Assembly (NCBI GenBank): GCA_023264015.1
Contig: JALQTJ010000012.1
Location: 1-37,458 of the forward strand
DNA length: 37,458 nt
Reading direction: 5' to 3'
DNA from: Flavobacteriaceae bacterium
GTDB taxonomy: Bacteria > Bacteroidota > Bacteroidia > Flavobacteriales > Flavobacteriaceae
A program made the translations under genes and the position numbers. Of the stretch, positions 31,776-35,792 are shown in pieces. Under the pieces are notes generated by a model that saw nothing but the letters and a program-made list of their open reading frames with translations, searched no databases and had not been told where the DNA came from. Every line of letters begins with the position of its first letter. The stretch's first letter is position 1.

Positions 31776-32660
31776 TTAGCTTTCAAGTGCTGTTTCAATT
31801 CTGCTCATGACAATAACATGAGGAAAAGTAATGGCCGCTAGAAAATACACCAATAACTCTAGGACATCCACGGAGTCAAGTCCAACAACCAATAAAATAA
31901 GGACAAATCCGACTACTGATATTCCCCAATAAAGCAATGCTGCTTTGGCATAAGAGGTCAAGCCGCTACCTGAGCTTTTTGGGTAAAGCAACTCAATCTG
32001 ATCTTTTATCGAGGGTAAAGCGTGCCATAGTGAAAAATAGAGCGCAAAAGAGAGCAGTAAACTGGTATAGCGGAATACGATAAACAGAAATACCAACGCT
32101 AAGAGTTCTACTAAGAACACCCGAAAAGAAATGCTCTGCGCTATGAACAGCATCAACATCGACAGCCCAAAAGCAGCCAAAGATAAAACCATAAAGTGCT
32201 GCTCCGTGAAGGATAGTGAAGTAATCGCTTCGATCACTAAGGCAGATTGCTCGGCGTGCGTCCAGAAAAGGAGTCCAAAAATGAGCAGTCCATAGGAGGT
32301 GTAGAAAGCAAAGCGAAATCCATTCGCGCCTTTGGTAAACCTATGCCAATGCTGTTGGCCAAAATGAAACGAGCTTATAAGAACAAAGAATAACAGAGCG
32401 AATTGACGCTGGGCATAGAATAAAAGCAATACAGCCACGATCAATCCTATATATATAAGCAACGTTTTTCGACGTGTTATTCCAGATACTTGTTCATAAG
32501 AAGCCAAACGTTGAATTACCATCAAATCATTAGATCCGTGTAAAAGACCTACCGTAAGGATAAGAAAAAGGGCTAAAACACCCTCTAAAGCCTCGGAAAC
32601 GCTGAATCCAACGATAGCTAAAACGAGCGTCAAAAAATACCTGATTTTAAGAAATTCCAT
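31776..32660 (-). CDS. blh: Beta-carotene 15,15'-dioxygenase, Brp/Blh family
   Basis: This polytopic membrane protein of 294 residues should cleave beta-carotene to two retinal molecules, supplying the chromophore of the neighbouring rhodopsin. The predicted iron-site segments are GLLHGSNDL (His41, Asp45), SSFHFGQQHW (His99), SLWHALPS (His213) and FPHVIVM (His281). Many Blh proteins, as I recall them, have HxxxH at the third segment; here position 217 is Ser. I use the ATG at 32660; a TTG three codons upstream (32669) is possible. It is divergent from the rhodopsin gene, with the promoter box TACCTTTG at 32678-32685. Confidence 0.92.
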   Translation of the reverse strand: MEFLKIRYFLTLVLAIVGFSVSEALEGVLALFLILTVGLLHGSNDLMVIQRLASYEQVSGITRRKTLLIYIGLIVAVLLLFYAQRQFALLFFVLISSFHFGQQHWHRFTKGANGFRFAFYTSYGLLIFGLLFWTHAEQSALVIEAITSLSFTEQHFMVLSLAAFGLSMLMLFIAQSISFRVFLVELLALVFLFIVFRYTSLLLSFALYFSLWHALPSIKDQIELLYPKSSGSGLTSYAKAALLYWGISVVGFVLILLVVGLDSVDVLELLVYFLAAITFPHVIVMSRIETALES

Positions 32661-32677
32661 AAAAAACAATGCGCATT

Positions 32678-32734: not shown

Positions 32735-32742
32735 TACATTTG
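32735..32742 (+). promoter_or_regulatory. -7 box of the proteorhodopsin gene
   Basis: TACATTTG is an exact match ending 28 bases before the rhodopsin ATG. The region between this box and the blh box is strongly A/T-rich (32686-32734), which leaves space for a light or nutrient regulator. No clear TTTG lies 19 bases upstream. Confidence 0.6.
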
Positions 32743-32770: not shown

Positions 32771-33508
32771 ATGAAAAGTTTACTACTCCAACTACCGTTG
32801 GTAGCAGATGTTTCGAAAATTGCTACTGACGATTACGTAGGCTTCACCTTTTTCGTAGGGTGTATGGCTATGATGGCAGCTTCTGCCTTCTTCTTTTTAT
32901 CGATGAACAGTTTCGATTCTAAATGGCGCACTTCAATCCTAGTTTCAGGTTTGATTACGTTTATCGCTGCTGTTCACTATTGGTACATGAGAGATTACTG
33001 GGCTTCAAACGGAGAATCTCCAACATTCTTCCGTTATGTTGACTGGGTACTCACCGTGCCGCTGATGTGTGTTGAATTCTACCTCATCTTAAAAGCTGCA
33101 GGTGCCAAGAAAGCATTAATGTGGAGACTCATTGCGCTCTCAGTAATCATGCTCGTTACAGGATACTGGGGAGAAGCGGTTAGTCGAGATCAAGCTGCCT
33201 TCTGGGGTCTAGTATCTGGAATCGCTTATTTCGTGATTGTATACGATATCTGGTTTGGGCAGGCCAAAAAACTGGCTGTTTCTGCTGGAGGGTCTGTATT
33301 ACAAGCGCACAAAACCCTATGTTGGTTCGTTCTAGTAGGATGGGCAATCTACCCAATCGGTTATATGGCTGGAACACCAGGATGGTATGAAGGAATATTT
33401 GGCGGATTAGCCATGGATGTTATCTATAACATCGGTGATGCCGTTAACAAAATTGGTTTCGGTCTAGTAGTATACGGCGCTGCTGTTGCTGCTCGTGACG
33501 CTAAATAA
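32771..33508 (+). CDS. Proteorhodopsin, light-driven proton pump
   Basis: This is a seven-helix microbial rhodopsin of 245 residues. Helix C reads RYVDWVLTVPLMCVEF: Arg88, the proton acceptor Asp91, Thr95 and the donor Glu102, the DTE set of outward proton pumps. Met99 occupies the tuning position (Leu in green, Gln in blue forms) and predicts green absorption. His69 would pair with Asp91. Retinal binds Lys227 in DAVNKIGFG, with Asp223 as second counter-ion. Gly146 in helix E sits where bacteriorhodopsin has Trp138 and xanthorhodopsin its antenna-side Gly. The gene has its own promoter and a strong terminator, and sits divergent to blh. Confidence 0.98.
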   Translation: MKSLLLQLPLVADVSKIATDDYVGFTFFVGCMAMMAASAFFFLSMNSFDSKWRTSILVSGLITFIAAVHYWYMRDYWASNGESPTFFRYVDWVLTVPLMCVEFYLILKAAGAKKALMWRLIALSVIMLVTGYWGEAVSRDQAAFWGLVSGIAYFVIVYDIWFGQAKKLAVSAGGSVLQAHKTLCWFVLVGWAIYPIGYMAGTPGWYEGIFGGLAMDVIYNIGDAVNKIGFGLVVYGAAVAARDAK

Positions 33509-35378: not shown

Positions 35379-35792
35379 ATGGTATGGAATACATCGCACA
35401 GTGATCAAAAGGTAGAACGAGAAATCAATACTGCCGTCGGATCGCCCTATTCACTGTTAGATCGAATCATCAAGGGAGGTATCGGTTCGCCTAAACTGAA
35501 TATCATTTCAGCTTCTGAGGAGCTGTCTCGACTCTTATATGTCAATCAAGATCGACATCAGTGCTCTATAGAGCTTCGACCTAAAGGAATCATTGTGCAC
35601 CTTAAGTCGCGTCTAGATACCTACGCCTTACCGATACCCTATTACAAACTAACTCTATATAAGGGTGATAAAGATGTATTTACGGTCTTCAAAGACCAAC
35701 ACAAAATAAAGGTAGAGGCAAAAGACGCTCGCGTTAAAACTTTCTTTAAACGCATTTTAGACGAAAAAACCCAATATTCTTCCCTTTCTTAA
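35379..35792 (+). CDS. Conserved-looking small cytoplasmic protein of unknown function
   Basis: I do not recognise this 137-residue protein. It has no signal peptide or TM helix. Residues about 65-125 alternate short beta-strands (CSIELRPKGIIVHLK, YYKLTLYKGDKDVFTVFKD, HKIKVEAKDARVKTFFKRI), which together with the closing helix look like a small PH-like beta-barrel, but that is only an impression from the pattern. The gene is convergent with gltA (21 bases apart) and divergent from argS. Its base composition is like its neighbours. Confidence that it is a real gene comes from the full open frame, the upstream element and codon use. Confidence 0.75.
   Translation: MVWNTSHSDQKVEREINTAVGSPYSLLDRIIKGGIGSPKLNIISASEELSRLLYVNQDRHQCSIELRPKGIIVHLKSRLDTYALPIPYYKLTLYKGDKDVFTVFKDQHKIKVEAKDARVKTFFKRILDEKTQYSSLS

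Follow-up and report, generated by a model that had tools for sequence, protein, structure and literature searches.

A flavobacterial proteorhodopsin that probably binds a 3-hydroxylated carotenoid antenna

Here we examine a rhodopsin gene at 32771-33508 (+) of a window of 37,458 nucleotides, the whole stretch of DNA analysed, from an uncultured flavobacterium of the family Flavobacteriaceae (contig JALQTJ010000012.1, assembly GCA_023264015.1). Its product of 245 amino acids (the query) probably binds a 3-hydroxylated carotenoid, a yellow-orange pigment, as an antenna that catches light besides the retinal, in the manner of the flavobacterial proteorhodopsins NM-R1 and KR1. The direct basis for this reading is the sequence, the identities of individual residues, 79% identity to a zeaxanthin-bound structure, a blh gene next to the rhodopsin and a carotenoid gene cluster with crtZ elsewhere in the genome; binding, energy transfer, pumping and the carotenoid present in vivo are carried over from NM-R1, KR1 and Kin4B8.

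The rhodopsin and its putative carotenoid pocket

The open reading frame at 32771-33508 encodes a protein of the family Bac_rhodopsin (PF01036, E 4.7e-39). An earlier note on this DNA had described a DTE-type, Met-tuned pump at this place, and its coordinates, family, motif and tuning residue all held. The Schiff-base lysine Lys227 and the DTE motif (D91, T95, E102) line up with their counterparts in NM-R1, xanthorhodopsin (XR) and green proteorhodopsin (GPR), giving the query the Schiff-base lysine and proton-pump motif of a seven-helix retinal protein. Met99 (codon 33065-33067, +) aligns with GPR Leu105, a position that we take, as established knowledge, to be the spectral-tuning site of proteorhodopsins. 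The protein is best read as a green-absorbing (Met99) outward light-driven proton pump, with pumping expected by analogy. No other rhodopsin was found in the host genome, whose assembly comprises 1.57 Mb in 148 contigs and is 97.2% complete.

The small fenestration residue of the query is Gly146 in helix E (codon 33206-33208, +). We aligned the query jointly with 64 rhodopsins from Bacteroidota and with chains of solved structures. This residue falls, without a gap, on XR Gly156, Kin4B8 Gly153, Gly178 of the Gloeobacter rhodopsin (GR) and Trp138 of bacteriorhodopsin, and its counterpart in NM-R1 is G142 (9jov). Bulky counterparts occur in the GPR chain (F153, listed as Phe152 in the earlier note; the two numberings differ by one) and in the blue proteorhodopsin 4jq6 (W134). 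From this position to the helix-E tyrosine there are 12 residues in the query, XR, Kin4B8, GR, GPR and 4jq6, and the chain numbering of bacteriorhodopsin gives the same spacing between W138 and Y150. Because this spacing is common to the query and the reference rhodopsins, the register of Gly146 is correct; the earlier placement of the glycine at the bacteriorhodopsin Trp138, GPR Phe and XR Gly position was not shifted by alignment of helix E with XR, Kin4B8 and GPR.

The nearest solved structure is that of NM-R1 from Nonlabens marinus, which is 79.1% identical to the query. The two proteins share the DTE motif, the methionine at the tuning site, a Thr-Pro pair and every fenestration residue compared; no functional difference between them was found, and the query stands apart in its host, a flavobacterium that is uncultured and whose assembly measures 1.57 Mb. 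We also built an AlphaFold2 model of the query, of middling quality (mean pLDDT, the predicted local distance difference test score, of 70, from a narrow alignment) and used for structure search only, for which the best Foldseek match was 9jou. An antenna of this kind is already known, both from NM-R1 with zeaxanthin (PDB 9JOU, released 2025-07-30 under the title 'zeaxanthin-bound light-driven proton pumping rhodopsin, NM-R1') and from KR1 of Dokdonia eikasta (BAN14807), a flavobacterial proteorhodopsin that is reported to bind lutein, zeaxanthin and astaxanthin but not canthaxanthin (PMC12308411).

Four further pocket positions have been compared among rhodopsins that bind carotenoids, namely 204, 205, 208 and 209 in Kin4B8 numbering, which read Y-A-S-Y in Kin4B8, Y-M-M-A in XR, Y-L-M-L in GR, Y-M-T-D in KR1 and Y-I-T-E in EinA29G6 (PMC12308411). 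According to the same study, Ser208 and Tyr209 of Kin4B8 hold the 3-hydroxyl of zeaxanthin; binding is lost in S208A and persists in Y209F, where transfer falls from ~40% to 18%; and ring A of the carotenoid is dominant for binding, with ring B dispensable. A polar residue at 208/209 accompanies 3-hydroxy carotenoids, and binders of 3-hydroxy xanthophylls combine the glycine and Tyr204 with a polar side chain at 208 (PMC12308411). The query reads Y198-M199-T202-P203 and so matches KR1, as given in the published table, at three of the four positions, with Pro in place of Asp at the fourth. Both the tyrosine conserved in known carotenoid binders (Tyr198, codon 33362-33364, +; Kin4B8 Tyr204, XR Tyr207) and the polar residue at 208 (Thr202, which with Pro203 occupies 33374-33379, +) are present. 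Kin4B8 itself (PDB 8I2Z), a zeaxanthin-bound xanthorhodopsin, has the glycine, the tyrosine and a polar 208 in common with the query, although it is 33% identical, lies in the XR clade and has Ser208/Tyr209 where the query has Thr/Pro.

In the mechanism that we propose, Gly146, standing in helix E instead of Trp or Phe, would leave space next to the ring of retinal. Into this opening would fit the 3-hydroxylated beta-ring of zeaxanthin and/or myxol, synthesized by the cell itself and held near Tyr198 and Thr202, and the bound carotenoid would then pass blue-green excitation to the retinal.

The glycine and the tyrosine are also common to the query and XR of Salinibacter ruber (3DDL; Gly156, Tyr207), as is the DTE motif. 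The shared glycine and tyrosine might suggest a xanthorhodopsin-type protein whose antenna is a 4-keto carotenoid, for instance salinixanthin or canthaxanthin. We regard this as very improbable. The query is nearer to NM-R1 (79%) and to proteorhodopsins (48% and 43%) than to XR (41%), and it is not closer to the XR clade as a whole (41/38/33% for XR/GR/Kin4B8) than to the proteorhodopsins. Moreover, the bottom of the XR site, which takes a 4-keto carotenoid, is hydrophobic (Met, Ala), whereas the query has Thr at 208 instead of the hydrophobic Met of XR and GR, and canthaxanthin is not bound by KR1, which shares this Tyr-Met-Thr set. Gammaproteobacterial GPR, likewise a DTE proton pump and 43% identical to the query, differs at the fenestration, where its Phe shuts the opening.

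The glycine and the threonine across Bacteroidota

The glycine is invariant in 82 of 82 sequences, namely the query and 81 near homologues. A phylum-wide draw yielded rhodopsins in 61 of 394 Bacteroidota genomes, and the glycine was found in 43/43 DTE and 17/17 NDQ alignable rhodopsins of this draw, whether or not the genome had a CrtZ homologue. On this sampling, Gly146 is beyond chance, yet it is a constant of the clade and no peculiarity of the query. Since every DTE and NDQ rhodopsin sampled has it, crtZ or not, the glycine alone carries almost no information within the sampled Bacteroidota rhodopsins, and we rejected it as a stand-alone marker of antenna use. What the earlier note had argued from the glycine is thus retained in part: a carotenoid antenna is still the best reading, resting on the 79% identity to NM-R1, the identical pocket residues, KR1 and crtZ, but it is not new for the clade, and the glycine is not diagnostic of it. 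As a separate observation, unusual motifs at the DTE positions occur in a few other Bacteroidota rhodopsins (L118, L089 of genome G231, L154 of G371 and L155 of G249): TSA and DTA, where the glycine site holds Trp and Phe, respectively, and DTK and DTQ, both with Gly there.

Within the sequences compared, Thr202 is the more informative residue. It is kept in 82/82 near homologues. Among sampled Bacteroidota DTE rhodopsins, those with Thr at this position come from 14 genomes in four families, with crtZ in 14/14, and crtZ is found in 15 of the 16 genomes with Thr or Ser at 202, compared with 8 of 27 for other residues (Fisher p 8e-5).

These counts bear on the alternative that the query is a plain retinal-only proteorhodopsin, in which Gly146 is an inherited default and the carotenoids serve photoprotection and as the retinal precursor. 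The universal glycine, present even in genomes without a CrtZ homologue, would fit this alternative, as would the pumping of GPR, which has no glycine there. We nevertheless consider it unlikely: at the pocket positions examined the query has the same residues as zeaxanthin-bound NM-R1, the polar Thr202 does not vary among the near homologues, and crtZ is present in 15/15 near-relative genomes searched.

Carotenoid genes and the expected pigment

An antenna of the kind preferred here calls for a 3-hydroxylated carotenoid, and the host cluster contains crtB, crtI, crtZ, crtD, cruF and a crtA-OH-like gene. CrtD and CrtI score above NCBIfam equivalog cut-offs; CruF and CrtB fall below the equivalog but above the Pfam cut-offs; the crtA-OH assignment is made by position and orientation only. 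No Pfam or NCBIfam model matched CrtZ, which was called from four His motifs, its position in the cluster and its homologues in the 15 near-relative genomes; a candidate for the crtZ-type hydroxylase is thus present in the host genome. Apart from the missing crtY, the genes follow the order of the myxol cluster described in Nonlabens (PMC11855829). Nonlabens species with this cluster contain myxol and zeaxanthin in varying shares, with myxol at 40 to 97 mol% by species, and N. marinus, the host of NM-R1, has 40 and 58 mol% of myxol and zeaxanthin (PMC11855829).

To judge from the gene set, zeaxanthin and/or myxol, rather than lutein, should serve as the native antenna pigment. Lutein is not expected because it requires an epsilon-ring, for whose formation nothing was seen in the host gene set, and because this set is of the myxol/zeaxanthin type. 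The earlier note had named zeaxanthin or lutein; the former is supported by the gene set and by NM-R1, and the latter is dropped as native ligand.

There is a fair chance, though short of even, that the carotenoid in the cell is monocyclic myxol rather than zeaxanthin, with its 3-hydroxy beta-ring in the opening and its psi-end along the membrane face. This would be consistent with crtD, cruF and the crtA-OH-like gene in the host cluster, with the myxol shares of Nonlabens and with the dominance of ring A in Kin4B8. On the other hand, the solved relative NM-R1 holds zeaxanthin, and the literature searched, which did not extend to most subscription papers, yielded no complex of a rhodopsin with myxol. 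Myxol would in any case be a variant of the antenna reading, not an exclusion of it.

At the head of the carotenoid cluster stands a regulator of the MerR type that contains a B12-binding domain (L087:13478-14380, -, contig C58); it is CarH-like, below the equivalog cut-off. Because of this similarity to the light-sensing CarH, the cluster may be light-regulated.

Several points weigh against a carotenoid antenna in this protein. At 209, the polar or aromatic residue of other binders (Tyr in Kin4B8, Asp in KR1, Glu in EinA29G6) is replaced by Pro203, and transfer efficiency could be lower than in Kin4B8 as a result. Pro203 appears to be no bar to binding, however, because this Pro is shared by NM-R1, whose structure carries zeaxanthin-bound in its title. 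Shared descent confounds the association of Thr202 with crtZ, which serves as a lead and proves nothing by itself. Finally, crtE and a lycopene cyclase are absent from the host assembly, which is probably a gap, though unproven. No lycopene cyclase was found in the host genome (G000) by PF05834, TIGR03462 or the CrtY protein of a sister genome, and the result was the same in the near sister G394; nor was the short-chain prenyl synthase crtE found in either.

In the sisters G395 and G397, crtE, crtY and zupT (a ZIP transporter) form one block apart from the main cluster. When an 18 kb region of G397 was used as a DNA query, two G394 contigs stopped exactly at the edges of this block, and no part of the region, rseP and feoB included, was present in the host assembly. 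Since the sisters carry the block, the G394 contigs break there and the host is without the whole region, an assembly gap is the simplest reading of the missing genes, and loss of lycopene cyclase in the host species was rejected. The genes for the rhodopsin and Blh and the late genes of carotenoid synthesis are all intact, a further point against a dead pathway. The comparison of G000 and G394 with L184 and L185 also serves as a warning against inferring gene loss from such draft genomes.

Gene neighbourhood and significance of the probable antenna

Directly beside the rhodopsin, and divergent from it, lies a gene for a Brp/Blh-family beta-carotene 15,15'-dioxygenase of retinal synthesis (31776-32669, -; PF15461, E 1.3e-34; TIGR03753 above cut-off). 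This arrangement recurs in 78 of 80 homologous loci; the flanks of the remaining two are too short to show it. Between the two genes, TACATTTG (32735-32742, +) resembles the Bacteroidota -7 element TAnnTTTG and is a putative promoter element of the rhodopsin; it is identical in L007 and L008 and is shifted to TACTTTGG upstream of the rhodopsin in L010. Farther along the window, an open reading frame of 137 amino acids (35379-35792, +) has an argS-like gene on one side and a citrate-synthase-like gene on the other.

A scan of viral contigs turned up one relative, at 70% identity, and a PHROGs search gave no match. A rhodopsin 85% identical to the query is found on a contig labelled Candidatus Rokubacteria (L052, OMJU01000080.1), a record that is probably mislabelled or mis-binned.

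Our analysis would extend the picture of zeaxanthin-bound NM-R1 to a small-genome lineage (1.57 Mb, 97% complete) that keeps the whole late carotenoid cluster, and retention of this cluster in a small genome fits a use of carotenoids beyond that of a retinal source. The much-used glycine criterion fails to discriminate among the sampled Bacteroidota rhodopsins, and Thr at the Kin4B8 Ser208 position, which tracks crtZ, could offer a cheap filter. We suggest, tentatively, that monocyclic myxol makes up some or most of the natural antenna of the clade, its one 3-hydroxy beta-ring lying in the fenestration. If this is true, the proton pumps of flavobacteria would gather light through a pigment that is undescribed as a rhodopsin antenna in the literature searched.
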